Shown piece by piece: positions 41,752 to 48,621 of a DNA stretch of 64,000 nt. The first letter of the stretch is position 1; each line of letters opens with the position of its first letter. Position numbers and translations under genes: made by a program. The notes beneath the pieces are model-generated. The model made no database searches. It saw only the letters and a list, made by a program, of their open reading frames with translations, and was not told where the DNA came from. Source of the stretch: Acidobacteriota bacterium (GTDB lineage: Bacteria; Acidobacteriota; Blastocatellia; UBA7656); assembly GCA_038040445.1 (NCBI GenBank), contig JBBPIG010000010.1:62001-126000 (forward strand), given 5' to 3'.

Positions 41752-43785
41752 TCACTTCGCTCCATCCATAGAATGCTCTTTTAGGACTGCCAGCAAGTCG
41801 CAGGCTATCTCTGCGGCCGCCTGGTATCGCTGGGCGGGGTCCTTTTTGAGCATATGCTCGATGACGGCAGCCAACGAATCGGGCGCGTCCTTGCGATGCT
41901 TTTTGATCGACGACGGCGCGCGCTTCTTTATCGCTTCGATTGTTTGAAAGTAAGTCTCGCCGTCGAACGGAAGCCTGCCGGTTGTCATCTCGTAGAGAAC
42001 CACACCCAGCGAGAATATGTCCGCGAGGTTCGTAACCTCACCGCGCCCTGTTGCCTGCTCCGGCGACATGTAGCTCACGGTTCCCAGCAGGACTCCGGAC
42101 TCAGTGAGACGCTCTTTGCTCGTGGCCCGGTTGAGAACAGGCAACGGTTTTGCAAGCCCAAAGTCGAGCACCTTAACTTTCCCTCGAGGCGTCATCATTA
42201 TGTTTGAAGACTTGATGTCGCGATGGACGACTCCGCATTCGTGCGCTTCGGCCAACGCCTCGGCAGTCTGCACACCAATGTCGATGATCTCACTCAGCGC
42301 GAGCGGCCCAACCTCGATGCGCTCCGCAAGCGTCTGCCCCTGAACGTACTCCATCACGATATAGGGATTGCCCGCGGCTTCGCCGATCTCGTGAATCGTT
42401 GCGATGTTCGGATGATTGAGCTGTGACGCCATGCGCGCTTCTCTCAGAAAGCGCTGCTTCATCGTTTCGTCCTCGATGTGCTTCGAAGCCAGCACCTTGA
42501 TCGCGACCGTGCGTTCAAGCTCGGTGTCGTACGATTCAAAGATCTCGCCCATACCGCCCGCTCCAAGCGAGCGCCTTATCTCGAATCTTCCGATGTGCCC
42601 CTCGGGTTCGATCAACGGCGGCGCCGCGACCTTTTCGGTCTTGCCATCGTGAACGGCCATAGCCGCGTGGTCTGTTTCGCGCAGCTCGGTTGTGATAATG
42701 CGCGGCCTCGAAATCACGCTTGAAAACAGAGTCGAAAAAATGCGCGGACCGCGGTCGTCCTGGATGAAGTAGCCCGCGCGCTTCAAGTCCTCGTAGATAT
42801 GCTCGTGCTCTTTCTCTACTCGTCCGTTTTCGATGAACTCGCGAATCGAGCGGCGGAAACTGTCGCTCAAGTGGTCCCAGATGAATCGGAACTGCCCCTT
42901 CGCCTCGTCCAGAAACGTCGCTTCGACTTCTTCGCGATCGAGCTTGCCCTCGTTTTCCTGAAGATGATCGAAGTACGCCGAGCAAGCGATCTGTAGAAAA
43001 TACGGGAAGTAACCGGCGATCTCCGTGATGCGGCGGCTGTAGCCTTCCAACGGGAAGCCTGCTCCGGCCGACGGCCGGGTGATCAGCTCCAGCGCTTCCT
43101 TGCGGGTGAACGCGCGCAGGAAGACGTTGGTAAAGATGTTGAAGAACGGCGAGTCGGCGATGAGCTGAGTGTGGCACAACTCCTGAAGGTCGCGCGCCGA
43201 GCTGGTCACATAGGCTACGTCGTAGTTGTTGGCGATCGATCGAAGAAACGAATAGAACTCGAGGTCAAACGCTCGATTGGTCGTGATTGCATCGAACTCG
43301 TCGAACAACACAACTAGCTTGCGTCCATCGCGGCGAAAGCTTTCGAGCACCACGCGCAGGGAGTCGAACGAAGGCTGCAGTTTCGAGAGCGACTTGTCGC
43401 CGGTTTCTTTCGCGAGCAGAGTGAACAGGTCTTTGAAGAACTCGATGAGCGTGAGCCGCCGCTTCTGCTGAAGATCGATAAACGCGAACGCGTAAGACTC
43501 GGATCGGTCGAGAGAGCGCAGGCGAACCTGCGGATCATTTATGAAATTGAGCAACGACGACTTGCCGATGCGCCGTTCGCCTACGACGGATATGGACTGC
43601 GGCCGCGACGCCCCGATGCGCGAGAAAATTTTCGACACCTCACGCGCACGCCCGAAGAACTGCGCCGGGTCTTTGATGGCTACTCGGTTAAGGTAGGGAT
43701 TCCGTACCATCGAATCGCTCTCGCCGAAGCTACACTCTCCCTCGAGCTGAAAGCGAACCGGTTTGTCGTAGTCTGAGGTGGTCAA
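41752..43785 (-). CDS. AAA ATPase fused to a Ser/Thr protein kinase
   Basis: 677 residues from TTG 43785, with GGGAGGA about 9 bases upstream. Residues about 28-370 are an AAA/STAND-like ATPase: NPYLNR...FFGRAREV, Walker A GERRIGKSS (69-77), Walker B KLVVLFDEFDAI (156-167), arginine region TSSARDL, helical and winged-helix tail. Residues about 398-670 are a complete Hanks-type kinase: glycine loop LGAGGMGE (407-414), Lys430 in VAIKVL, catalytic HRDIKSSN (521-528), DFGLAKP (541), and MSPEQATG for APE. The ATPase-first order, with no TM segment, suggests the NTPase senses a signal and gates the kinase. Last gene of the minus-strand island. Confidence 0.92.
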   Translation of the reverse strand: MTTSDYDKPVRFQLEGECSFGESDSMVRNPYLNRVAIKDPAQFFGRAREVSKIFSRIGASRPQSISVVGERRIGKSSLLNFINDPQVRLRSLDRSESYAFAFIDLQQKRRLTLIEFFKDLFTLLAKETGDKSLSKLQPSFDSLRVVLESFRRDGRKLVVLFDEFDAITTNRAFDLEFYSFLRSIANNYDVAYVTSSARDLQELCHTQLIADSPFFNIFTNVFLRAFTRKEALELITRPSAGAGFPLEGYSRRITEIAGYFPYFLQIACSAYFDHLQENEGKLDREEVEATFLDEAKGQFRFIWDHLSDSFRRSIREFIENGRVEKEHEHIYEDLKRAGYFIQDDRGPRIFSTLFSSVISRPRIITTELRETDHAAMAVHDGKTEKVAAPPLIEPEGHIGRFEIRRSLGAGGMGEIFESYDTELERTVAIKVLASKHIEDETMKQRFLREARMASQLNHPNIATIHEIGEAAGNPYIVMEYVQGQTLAERIEVGPLALSEIIDIGVQTAEALAEAHECGVVHRDIKSSNIMMTPRGKVKVLDFGLAKPLPVLNRATSKERLTESGVLLGTVSYMSPEQATGRGEVTNLADIFSLGVVLYEMTTGRLPFDGETYFQTIEAIKKRAPSSIKKHRKDAPDSLAAVIEHMLKKDPAQRYQAAAEIACDLLAVLKEHSMDGAK

Positions 43786-43845: not shown

Positions 43846-44365
<520 letters not shown>

Positions 44366-44457: not shown

Positions 44458-47400
44458 TTAAAGCGTCCTTACTTCTTTCACCACCTGCCAGATCGAATGC
44501 GACCGGCGGATCCACAGCCGCAGCAAATCAATCTTGAACCTGAACCCGTCGGCGGTGTCTTTCTCCAACAACTCGCGGCGGAACATCTCTTCCAGTGTCA
44601 GGCGCAGGGTGTTCTCCGAAAGGTTGACCGGGTAATCGTTCGCCCTTACCGAGGCGCGCAGCTCCCCGGCGGTCGCATAAGCGAGCGCATCCCCGAGCGC
44701 TTCTCCGAGCAGCGACAGGCCCAGCTTTTCGTCGTCCGACAGCGCGTCCCACGTGTAGATCATCTGCGGAAGCGGGTTGTCGACGATCTCTGTGATCACC
44801 TGTCCCAAATCGGCGACCGTAACCCAGTTTTGGCGGTGCTCGTTCATATAGTCGACCACGTTCTGACAGATTACCTGCGTGTAGAAGGGCTGGCCCGCCG
44901 TCAGGCGATAGATGACGTCCATCACCCCGCGCCCGTAAACTACGCGGCCTTCCACGGGGTGGGTGATCAAGCGAACGGTGTCTTTCTCGGATAAGAAGCC
45001 GACTTTGCGGAAGAGAGATCTTCTCAGCAACTCTCGCCAGTATTTCTTGTCTCTCTCTTCGAGCCTCCGAGAACCGGTGAAGATCAGCGCCAGCCGCTCC
45101 TTGTTATCCATGAGCCCGGCCAGAAACGTGAACAGTTCTTTCGAGAGCTTGCCTTCATCGACTTTCCCTTCAAGCAACTCGTACTCGTCCATCAATATCA
45201 GCAGTGTGCGATCACCGATCGATTCCAGCACGTGATCAAGGAAGTCCAGGAACATCGGGTAAGGATTTCGACCGTCGAATACAGGAACGCTTATGATGGA
45301 CGCTTGTGCGAGCGCCGTCTGCCTTACAAGACCCGCAGATCGCGCGGTGGCCACCAAAATGGCCGTGGCAGGGTCCGACTCGCTCAACGCGCGACTGTTC
45401 GATCGAGCCACTGCTTCTGCAATCAACCGGGATATGCGGGCGAAGAATTCCGAATCCGAAGCAATCACCATTTCCTGAAGGTCGACAAACACCGGAATGA
45501 ACCGCTCGCCCAGCCGGCCGCCCGCCACCTGATATAGAATCGAGCTCTTGCCCACGCGCCGCTCGCCGCAAAAAACGATCACCACGCCCTGGCTCGTGCC
45601 TTCGAGCTTCGTGCGCACGTAGCGAAAGTCGTCTTCGCGGCCGTAGAACATTTTCTCGGTGCGGATCGGGTTGCCGACGATAAACGGGTTCGGCTCGATC
45701 GGAACATAACTACGCAGTTCCTTCGGCAGAACGTACTCCCGGTCGCCGAACCTGCGAGCGGCAAAAGCGGCCCCCAGAGCCAATCCTATGACTGCAATCG
45801 CAAGCGCGTAGAACCACCAGCTCTTCCAGAAAGGCGAACCCACCCGCACAGACAGCGTGGCCGCCGGAGCCTTTGCGCCGTACAGGTCCCGGTTCAAAGC
45901 AATAAGCTCGAACGTGTGGGCGCCTTCGTCCAGGTCCATGCGCGACACATCGCGTTCAGCCCCCTGCTGCATCGGCAACACTTCCCAGGGCGGCTCCCCG
46001 TCTCCTGAGTCGATGCGATAAAGGTAGCGTGTCTGCCCGCTCATGGTTGCCGCGCTGAAATGAAAAGTCAGCCGGTGGCGTCCGGAGGAAACATCGTAGG
46101 AGCCGGACTCCGACGCTTGCTGAATGCGGCCATCCACTTCAAGCGAGACCTCCGCTGGAGGCGCGATCGTAACCGGCATATGCCGGACTGCGCCTTTGTT
46201 CGTGGCGATCCAAATGCGGCCCTCGGAGTCCTGCGAGATCGAATTGATCCTGCTGCCGGTCAGCGCGTGAGCTTCGCCTGAATACACTGTAGAGAATACA
46301 TGCCCGCCGAACTCAAGGATTTTTTTTACGCGGCCTTCATCCGTTCCCGCCCATAGATATCCGTCGCGATCGACGAACATAGTGTTGGCCGGCTCGGCAT
46401 CGAAGGTAGTAAACGCAGACCCGCTGTAAGCCTGGATGCCTCCGCGCGTCGCAACTAGCAGCCTGTCATTGAACCGAGTGATCCAGCGCGCGTCGTTATC
46501 GGCCAGCCCCCGCGAGATATCAATGATCTCGGCGTCGCCGCCTTTTGGATCGATGCTGACGACTCCGCGCGCCGTGGCGAACCACACCCGCCCATCGGTG
46601 TCCTCGAACGCCTGCCGCGCGTCGTAGCCGGAGAGCGCTTCGATGTTGCTCAACTCGCCGCCACGGAACAAAGAAGCGCCTCGAGTTGTCGCGAACACGA
46701 TAGCTGAGCCGTCCGCGATCGTTGTCACCCACTGGACGTTGTTTGAAGCGAGCCCGCTGCCTTCGTTGAACTGAGTGAGAGTTTCGCCTGTCCACCTGAG
46801 CGCGCCTTGCTCGGTTGCAAACCAGGCCGAGCGTTCGCGGTCGAACGCGACTGCCTGGACGCTGATGCCGCTGCGGAACCCCGGGAGCGAAACGAATCGC
46901 TCGCCTTCAAGCCGGGAGACACCGCCCTGCGTCAGGAACCACAGATCATTCTGCCCGCGCGAGCCCGGAGCTCCCGGCGCCAGGACGACCTGCTGCACGT
47001 CATTGTCCGCAAGGCCGCGGCTGGTGGTGAAGCCAACGAAGCTGTAGAAGTCCGAACTGATGACGCCGTTGTCAGTTGCAAACCAGACGTTTCCTTCGCG
47101 CCCCGCGTAGATGGCGGCGACCCTATCGCGATCGAGAAAGTTGACCCGCTGAGACTCCTGTTGCACGGGGTCGTAAACGCTCACCCCGCCCGCATCGTGC
47201 GCGAACCACATGCGCCCGCTTCGGTCTTCGCCTATAGCGCTAGAGCTTGCGTCACGCGATCCATTGGCACTTCGAATCGCATCTATCGGGAGCCGGCGCA
47301 GGCCACCCTTGTCGATCAACACAAGGCCACTCGCCGTTGCCAGCCACGTCCTGCCGGCAGCGTCTACGAAGGCGGTCCGAGCATCGCTCACCGGACTCTC

Positions 47401-48621
47401 GCGCTCCGTCTGGCCTTTCGCTCCGCGCGGCTCACGCGGTTGATTGAATGAAACAAGCTTCCCGTTTTCCAGATGGGACACGCCGCCCGCGGTCACAATC
47501 CACATGTTGCCGTTCTTGTCCTGGGCCACGGCTCTCACGTCATCGGAAGGCAATTCACCCGAATGGGCGAAAGGAACGAGAGCCCGGCCGTCGAACTGAA
47601 ACAGTCCACCAAGCGCGGCGACCCAAACATTGCCCGCGGAATCGACGAAGACTTGTCGAGAATCGGGAATGTCGAACGCAGGACCGGCTTCCTTGCCCTT
47701 CTTTGTTATTCTCCGAACGCTTCGCCCAGTCGCGAGCCACATCGTGCCATTGCGGTCTTCGGCGATCGAGCGAACATCCTCGCCCGCGAGTTGTTCGAAT
47801 TCAGATCCAGCCCCAGCCGAAGACTTGAACTCCGCGCCGTTGAATCGCGCAATGCCTTTGTCGGTGCCAAACCACATCCAGTCTTCGCTGTCCTGAAATA
47901 TGGCCCGCACATTCTTCGAAGGGAGATTTGGTACCGTGTGCCGCGTGACCGCCTTCTCATTGATCGGAATAACCGGCGCCACCAGTAGTTGAAGCGGGAA
48001 CTCCGTAGTTATGCCCGACGAGATAAACACATCGTTGCGGTACTCATCGTAGCCTCGCAGCGTGGCGCTCAATTGATAGGAGCCGGGCGCGAGCCTTCCG
48101 AAATACGCATCGCCGTACTGGTCGGTCACACTTCGCGCCGCGAGCGCGCCCACTACGGCGCGCTCCTTCGCGTAGACGCTGACCGTCACACCGGGAATAG
48201 CTTGCGAGCCCGCGTCCAACACAGCAACGTGCAGCGACGAAGGGGTGAGCTTTATCGGCGGCGAGACGAATGTCTCATCTGGTCGCAGGGGGACGTTCAC
48301 CGCCTCTTTCCGAAACCTGGCGGCTTCGACAGTAATGCGATACTGAGCGGATTTGAGGTTGTGAAACTCGAACTTGCCATCCGCCTGGGTGGTCTTGGCC
48401 GACGCCAGGTCGCCGGAGGTGAGAGTTACCTTCGCGTTAGCGAGCGCAGCGCCTTTATCGTCTTGAATGACTCCTGTAATGGCGCCGTTCTCGCCCTGGG
48501 CAGCGGCCAGGTAGCCCGTCGCACTGACCGCTACGACAATCAACGCAATCAATAGGACCAACGAACTGCGCCTGCGGCGGGCGCTGTGTGAAGAAAGGTT
48601 GCTTGGAATTCGTTTCGGCAC
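44458..48621 (-). CDS. Giant transmembrane propeller sensor with C-terminal AAA ATPase
   Basis: 1387 residues from GTG 48621, 13 bases after the PIN stop, so probably translated by coupling. In order: basic N-terminus with signal/TM at about 20-40; two carboxypeptidase-regulatory-like Ig domains (about 45-215); ligand-binding propeller repeats of the two-component-regulator type (about 225-820, for example DSEDWMWFGTDKGIARFNG and DRNGTMWLATGRSVRRI); a Y_Y_Y domain (about 825-920); one TM (about 930-950, WWFYALAIAVIGLALG); and a cytoplasmic AAA/STAND-like module (about 975-1387) with NPFIVGNPI, FYGRED, Walker A GERRVGKSS and Walker B LLILMDEYELL. In the usual hybrid system the output is a histidine kinase; here it is an ATPase. 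Confidence 0.9.
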   Translation of the reverse strand: MPKRIPSNLSSHSARRRRSSLVLLIALIVVAVSATGYLAAAQGENGAITGVIQDDKGAALANAKVTLTSGDLASAKTTQADGKFEFHNLKSAQYRITVEAARFRKEAVNVPLRPDETFVSPPIKLTPSSLHVAVLDAGSQAIPGVTVSVYAKERAVVGALAARSVTDQYGDAYFGRLAPGSYQLSATLRGYDEYRNDVFISSGITTEFPLQLLVAPVIPINEKAVTRHTVPNLPSKNVRAIFQDSEDWMWFGTDKGIARFNGAEFKSSAGAGSEFEQLAGEDVRSIAEDRNGTMWLATGRSVRRITKKGKEAGPAFDIPDSRQVFVDSAGNVWVAALGGLFQFDGRALVPFAHSGELPSDDVRAVAQDKNGNMWIVTAGGVSHLENGKLVSFNQPREPRGAKGQTERESPVSDARTAFVDAAGRTWLATASGLVLIDKGGLRRLPIDAIRSANGSRDASSSAIGEDRSGRMWFAHDAGGVSVYDPVQQESQRVNFLDRDRVAAIYAGREGNVWFATDNGVISSDFYSFVGFTTSRGLADNDVQQVVLAPGAPGSRGQNDLWFLTQGGVSRLEGERFVSLPGFRSGISVQAVAFDRERSAWFATEQGALRWTGETLTQFNEGSGLASNNVQWVTTIADGSAIVFATTRGASLFRGGELSNIEALSGYDARQAFEDTDGRVWFATARGVVSIDPKGGDAEIIDISRGLADNDARWITRFNDRLLVATRGGIQAYSGSAFTTFDAEPANTMFVDRDGYLWAGTDEGRVKKILEFGGHVFSTVYSGEAHALTGSRINSISQDSEGRIWIATNKGAVRHMPVTIAPPAEVSLEVDGRIQQASESGSYDVSSGRHRLTFHFSAATMSGQTRYLYRIDSGDGEPPWEVLPMQQGAERDVSRMDLDEGAHTFELIALNRDLYGAKAPAATLSVRVGSPFWKSWWFYALAIAVIGLALGAAFAARRFGDREYVLPKELRSYVPIEPNPFIVGNPIRTEKMFYGREDDFRYVRTKLEGTSQGVVIVFCGERRVGKSSILYQVAGGRLGERFIPVFVDLQEMVIASDSEFFARISRLIAEAVARSNSRALSESDPATAILVATARSAGLVRQTALAQASIISVPVFDGRNPYPMFLDFLDHVLESIGDRTLLILMDEYELLEGKVDEGKLSKELFTFLAGLMDNKERLALIFTGSRRLEERDKKYWRELLRRSLFRKVGFLSEKDTVRLITHPVEGRVVYGRGVMDVIYRLTAGQPFYTQVICQNVVDYMNEHRQNWVTVADLGQVITEIVDNPLPQMIYTWDALSDDEKLGLSLLGEALGDALAYATAGELRASVRANDYPVNLSENTLRLTLEEMFRRELLEKDTADGFRFKIDLLRLWIRRSHSIWQVVKEVRTL

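Follow-up and report, generated by a model that had tools for sequence, protein, structure and literature searches.

The outputs of bacterial receptors with propeller or binding-protein sensors are taken to be histidine kinases, diguanylate cyclases or the like. For hybrid two-component receptors, an architecture with both periplasmic-binding-protein and propeller sensors has been described (PMC3243724). A separate class of bacterial systems, the predicted nSTAND2 counter-invader operons of Kaur, Burroughs, Iyer and Aravind (2021, PMC8195603), is mobile and made of two genes; one of the two STANDs has eroded NTP motifs and the effectors are mostly GT4 or HEPN. The related pair of nSTAND2-kind STANDs in these operons was proposed to form a mixed multimer (PMC8195603). 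In the established STAND mechanism, an inducer opens the ADP-bound closed form, leading to nucleotide exchange and to a multimerisation that clusters the effectors (PMC4381067). Here we analyse a 64,000-nucleotide stretch of DNA, hereafter the window, from a soil-type Acidobacteriota bacterium (Blastocatellia, UBA7656; assembly GCA_038040445.1, contig JBBPIG010000010.1, positions 62,001 to 126,000). It carries a receptor gene, P1, and a second STAND gene, P2, whose products, based on paralogous STAND-type AAA ATPases, probably act together as a transmembrane signalling relay.

The receptor and its STAND module

P1 (44458-48621, minus strand, as are all features below) starts with GTG and encodes 1387 amino acids. 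An N-terminal hydrophobic segment (signal; residues ~17-43 by hydropathy) precedes two CarboxypepD_reg beta-sandwich domains (residues 48-215; 47977-48480; Pfam 1.6e-22) found in all 18 aligned orthologues. Reg_prop repeats follow (residues ~226-820; 46162-47946; Pfam 3.7e-41 in seven stretches), which the structural model and Foldseek predict to form a double seven-bladed propeller. The next domain is of the Y_Y_Y type (residues ~821-928; 45838-46161); it stays below the Pfam threshold in the window protein, is called in 7 of the 18 aligned orthologues (best 2.3e-8) and aligns in the model with BT4663. A transmembrane helix recognised by hydropathy (residues ~934-958, of which 934-957 correspond to 45751-45822) leads to an AAA/STAND module (residues 975-1387; 44461-45699). 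This propeller-Y_Y_Y-transmembrane layout had been proposed in an earlier, sequence-only reading of the window, and it stands. The extracytoplasmic "Ig" part of that reading does consist of real domains, which are the two CarboxypepD_reg domains and not Ig.

An AlphaFold2 model of residues 188-1387 (9 sequences, mean pLDDT 71) shows two propellers and a beta-sandwich, then an alpha/beta ATPase with helices after it; the C-terminal helical region, where a STAND winged helix would be expected, is of low confidence. Foldseek matched the model best to the periplasmic domains of BT3049, BT4673 and BT4663 (E 1.8e-37 to 3e-34, the former value for BT3049). VIA superposition on these receptors gave Z scores of 28-29 with a root mean square deviation (rmsd) of 11-15 Å (for one of them Z 28 over 635 residues, rmsd 11.4), and the large deviation probably stems from a loose mutual placement of the two modelled propellers. 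The alignment with BT4663 and BT3049 runs through model residue 743, i.e., across the Y_Y_Y region. As far as the model goes, the sensor half of P1 matches the periplasmic part of the hybrid two-component receptors BT4663, BT3049 and BT4673, as the sequence-only reading had supposed. An assignment to PorZ was rejected, as the NCBIfam model T9SS_PorZ scored 71 bits against a cut-off of 260 and only the propeller is in common. Two genomes of family f4 (G009 and G013) hold 54 and 76 Y_Y_Y matches, versus 1 in the window genome, which indicates a large expansion of propeller receptors.

Since its periplasmic half resembles those receptors, P1 might be taken for an ordinary hybrid two-component receptor with an overlooked kinase, or for an artificial join of two genes. 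Pfam scans detected neither HisKA nor HATPase_c in P1, even at E<=1, and this absence is meaningful because the same kind of scan finds both (HisKA_3, 7e-10; HATPase_c, 2e-10) in the genome's other Reg_prop/Y_Y_Y protein (L221:3600-6707). Neither P1 nor its aligned orthologues gave a Pfam match to a receiver or a helix-turn-helix output. The entire length of P1 aligns with full-length orthologues of identical layout (1291-1445 aa) from 17 further Blastocatellia genomes, and one more orthologue (L057) is cut by a contig end; an assembly chimera is thereby ruled out. Close holders with names include Chersky_418, UBA7656 and gp4 AA13, and the taxonomic survey found the architecture to be widespread and single-copy in Blastocatellia. 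Both versions of this explanation are refuted, and the sequence-only reading was right to see no histidine kinase motif and to treat the frame as one gene.

The same reading described the cytoplasmic output as an AAA/STAND-like module of about 400 residues with clear Walker motifs, which agrees with our analysis. Pfam returned weak AAA matches to the module (ATPase_2, AAA_14 and AAA_22; residues 992-1215). Walker A reads GERRVGKSS (residues 1019-1027; 45541-45567), with a lysine invariant in all 44 paired receptors, and Walker B reads LLILMDEYE (residues 1140-1148; 45178-45204), with a DE pair likewise invariant (44/44). When both partners of the pairs are considered, the Walker A lysine is found in 44/44 and the Walker B residues in 44/44 (DE) and 40/44 (E). 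The module thus has a P-loop NTPase core in which both Walker motifs are intact, as a STAND ATPase should. The stretch AGQPFYTQ (residues 1242-1249; 44875-44898), in which the proline is kept in 41 and the glutamine in 44 of the 44 receptors, lies at the position of the STAND GxP-like motif and may represent it. The nearest solved relatives of the module by sequence are 2fna, a conserved hypothetical protein, and 2qen, a Walker-type ATPase. Mean identity among P1 orthologues is 65-67% in the STAND part versus 37% in the propeller, as would be expected if the signalling part stays constant while the receptor above it diverges.

The STAND-kinase partner and its co-inheritance with the receptor

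What the sequence-only reading omitted is the gene located 672 bp downstream of P1 on the same strand. P2 (41752-43785; 677 aa as called) combines nSTAND2 (3.8e-65) with a Ser/Thr protein kinase (Pkinase, 2.2e-51), and its conserved start is probably M26, at 43710. The nSTAND2 module (residues ~29-360; 42706-43701), delimited by Pfam and alignment, scores 220 bits against PF20702, for which the gathering cut-off is 24. The Hanks-type kinase domain (residues ~398-660; 41806-42594) carries the motifs GAGGMG, VAIKV, HRDIKSSN and DFGL, so that glycine loop, VAIK, HRD and DFG are all intact, and its model is PknB-like (Z 27.0, rmsd 2.4 over 243 residues). Very probably, then, the output is this second STAND fused to a Ser/Thr kinase, beyond the AAA module of P1 alone.

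The two STAND modules are related to each other. nSTAND2 is matched in 9 of the 18 P1 orthologues at E<=0.01 (best 2.1e-5), and hhalign compared the receptor profile with that of the P2 family at 99.8%; on these alignments, the modules share ancestry. In a joint STAND tree, receptors and partners are reciprocally monophyletic (0/88 misplaced, support 0.89). The distance matrices of receptors and partners are correlated at r=0.93 for all 44 pairs and at 0.83 for the 25 pairs outside the Blastocatellia orthologues; none of 2000 shuffles reached these values, the shuffle maxima being 0.39 and 0.31. The simplest reading of these trees would be a single origin of the pair, with joint inheritance of its two members since.

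Orthologue counts in 58 related genomes are in line with this: 20 have both genes, 1 has P2 only (an 85%-complete genome), none has P1 only and 37 have neither (Fisher p 1e-14, uncorrected for phylogeny, the genomes not being phylogenetically independent). P1 and P2 are neighbours in families f1 and f8, except in draft genome G001, which has them on separate contigs. A same-strand partner occurs within 2 kb at 37 of 53 receptor loci, over several phyla, and elsewhere in the genome at 12 more; neighbours of this kind were among the seeds of the partner profile, which makes the adjacency count descriptive.

P1 sits in a supported clade (99/94) of kinase-coupled receptors whose sensors differ. 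Some bear a Peripla_BP_6 domain and a transmembrane segment (L150, L152, L154 and L155; E 9e-60 to 5e-50), others a front of multiple transmembrane segments (L156 and L158-L160), and three a C-terminal part with PEGA (L153, L201 and L202). Every complete partner found in this clade carries, or adjoins, a Ser/Thr kinase. The kinase may come before or after nSTAND2, and at L200 nSTAND2 and kinase are separate adjacent genes; fusion is therefore unnecessary for their association. The sensor is exchangeable while the STAND pair and the kinase are kept.

Several points weigh against the relay. The window P1 itself falls short of nSTAND2 (PF20702) in Pfam, and the fold-comparison lists were filled by the propellers for P1 and by the kinase for P2, so that we assert no structural match for the STAND modules; confidence in the models is middling (pLDDT 71 for P1 and 69 for P2). 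Within Blastocatellia, part of the agreement between the trees is what the species tree by itself would produce. The genes are unlinked in families f2 and f4; among the f4 genomes are 3.7 Mb ones of the Chloracidobacterium kind, with two replicons. The strongest exception comes from Poribacteria, in which L207:5708-10147 encodes a 1479-aa protein with CarboxypepD_reg, Reg_prop and Y_Y_Y domains, a transmembrane segment and AAA (its place in the tree is uncertain owing to a long branch), and no nSTAND2 partner was detected in that genome. Given this case, a propeller-STAND receptor may work without P2.

From the last two points one could argue that P1 acts alone, its own STAND being the output (e.g., a membrane scaffold) and P2 a neighbour or a co-inherited gene without functional contact. 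The co-occurrence counts, the mirrored trees and the same-strand adjacency over several phyla all argue against this, as does the retention of P2 in all f2 and f4 genomes that have P1, where every P2 is still an nSTAND2-kinase. We thus regard a solitary role for P1 as improbable, and favour a relay in which both genes take part.

Neighbouring genes and distant relatives

A BrnT toxin gene (44078-44365; BrnT_toxin, 9.3e-27) lies between P1 and P2. It is overlapped by a small open reading frame (43846-44127) that gave no Pfam match and is, by position only, a probable antitoxin gene. We consider brnT to be probably a later insertion, outside the relay. Other genomes have a D12 methyltransferase gene in the same gap (L052), an EcoRV endonuclease and a D12 methyltransferase gene (L055), or nothing (L053 and L061); the gap, at 43846-44365 in the window, is a small hot spot at which selfish or defence genes insert. 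Directly upstream of P1 (48635-51797) are a PIN/VapC-like gene and a gene for an 891-aa MmeI/Alw26-like DNA methyltransferase, in which our scans found no recognised nuclease domain. These restriction-modification, PIN and BrnT neighbours were rejected as parts of the system, as they vary from one genome to another and are missing where P1 and P2 adjoin each other. Malate dehydrogenase was likewise dismissed as a P2-linked part, being a conserved neighbour in one genus and not seen elsewhere. In two genomes of one genus, gyrB is directly upstream of P1 (identified by Pfam in L054 and as an open reading frame of equal length, 822 aa, in L053).

Outside the clade of P1, receptor-type STANDs at ~25-30% identity carry fused type I DNA methylase or specificity parts (L074 and L161) or GAF (L208), and their partners carry TIR (L206, 4e-26) or CHAT (L205, 3.5e-31). 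Nucleotide-cyclase domains were weakly matched on the partner at L080 and on the second copy at L058. At L161:4615-10349 and L074:4198-9800, a type I N6-methylase, joined in L074 by a specificity domain, is fused to a receptor-type STAND next to a second STAND gene on the chromosome, and a methylase-STAND relative is found on the Acinetobacter ursingii plasmid NZ_MH220285.1 (199686-200933). These methylase-fused STANDs look like a paired-STAND defence system linked to restriction-modification. The receptor-type STANDs of L205:4104-9727 and L206:2912-8999 are paired with nSTAND2-CHAT and TIR-nSTAND2, respectively, i.e., the same pair with immune-type effectors. A cluster in Poribacteria (L058:5228-15168) encodes a receptor STAND, an nSTAND2 protein, a caspase-like/PEGA protein and a second nSTAND2 protein, the one with the weak cyclase match.

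Such relatives raise the question of whether P1 and P2 form a counter-invader system, anti-phage or causing programmed death, in which P1 would sense surface attack and the STAND pair would fire a suicidal or dormancy-inducing kinase response. The first description of nSTAND2 did come from predicted two-gene counter-invader operons (PMC8195603), distant pairs bear TIR, CHAT or type I methylase and specificity domains, and genes for BrnT, PIN and a DNA methylase stand beside or between P1 and P2. The P2 kinase also matches the PADLOC PD-T4-6 kinase models, as any Hanks kinase may; these PD-T4-6/mad6 matches cover the kinase domain alone and were rejected as evidence of defence. Against a defensive role, the genes are single-copy across four families and receptor and kinase are kept when unlinked, unlike mobile defence islands. 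No match was found among 50,697 phage records, and plasmid matches are limited to the methylase-fused relatives in A. ursingii. In ordinary signalling, propeller/Y_Y_Y domains and the LivJ-type binding protein serve as receptors for small molecules, and L053 and L061 have adjacent P1 and P2 without toxin or restriction-modification genes, which thus look like later insertions. A counter-invader function is consequently unlikely in our view, if somewhat less so than a P1 that acts alone. The P1-P2 pair is not mobile; it is co-inherited in single copy in the four families.

The proposed relay among known systems

Applying the established STAND mechanism (PMC4381067) to P1 and P2, we propose that ligand binding leads to STAND opening and then to P2 clustering. 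The periplasmic double propeller and Y_Y_Y domain of P1 would bind a ligand, and the resulting movement would cross the single transmembrane helix to the cytoplasmic STAND, which would pass from the closed nucleotide state to the open one. Once opened, the P1 STAND could co-assemble with the nSTAND2 module of P2 and gather several P2 copies. The clustered Hanks-type kinases would be activated, most simply by proximity-driven autophosphorylation, and would then phosphorylate cell targets. Ligand binding, nucleotide switching, contact between the two proteins, kinase activation and the direction of signalling are all predictions of this scheme. The sequence-only reading had suggested an NTPase switch coupled to the sensing of a nutrient or ligand: anatomically, this coupling is well supported, while sensing of a nutrient is without direct support, no ligand, linked transporter or glycan-degradation genes having been identified for P1.

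The relay can be tested by two-protein reconstitution. If real, it would show a way for a sensor to govern a soluble eukaryotic-like kinase in bacteria, in which the inputs of these kinases are mostly unknown, and it would connect routine sensing of the environment with the ATPase switches that serve innate immunity in bacteria and animals. P1 and P2 might even exemplify a general signalling class parallel to two-component systems, in which exchangeable sensors (propeller, LivJ-type binding protein, multiple transmembrane segments or PEGA) on a membrane STAND act through STAND-STAND co-assembly on a STAND-Ser/Thr kinase, the ATPase pair being common to TIR-, CHAT- and methylase-bearing immune-type systems; we see this generalisation as evenly poised.

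What seems to be new is the combination of a known sensor class with a known paired-STAND class, the nSTAND2 systems having been predicted in 2021. No published description of a propeller-STAND or binding-protein-STAND receptor was found, which is weak evidence of novelty since our coverage of the literature is incomplete. P1 shares with the Bacteroidetes hybrid two-component receptors BT4663, BT3049 and BT4673 the double seven-bladed Reg_prop propeller and Y_Y_Y domain outside and the single transmembrane helix, and the two groups of receptors use the same two kinds of sensor, propeller and binding protein (PMC3243724). P1 differs from them in that HisKA, HATPase_c, receiver and helix-turn-helix domains are replaced by a STAND ATPase, whose STAND-kinase partner is a protein of its own.

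The nSTAND2 counter-invader operons resemble P1-P2 in having two neighbouring genes that each encode a related STAND, as seen in the window and at 36 further loci, the f2 and f4 genes being unlinked. P1-P2 differs from them in its intact Walker motifs on both sides, its transmembrane receptor, its Ser/Thr kinase in place of GT4 or HEPN, and its vertical inheritance. STAND kinases such as PknK and STAND regulators such as MalT (PMC4381067) also join a STAND switch to an output, be it a Ser/Thr kinase or a different one; these are single proteins of the MalT subfamily and not a receptor-STAND/STAND-kinase pair. Finally, GdpX2 and GdpX3 of Xanthomonas oryzae (PMC6637768) likewise connect a Reg_prop/Y_Y_Y sensor to an output other than a histidine kinase, although theirs is a GGDEF domain for cyclic di-GMP synthesis whereas that of P1 is a STAND ATPase.

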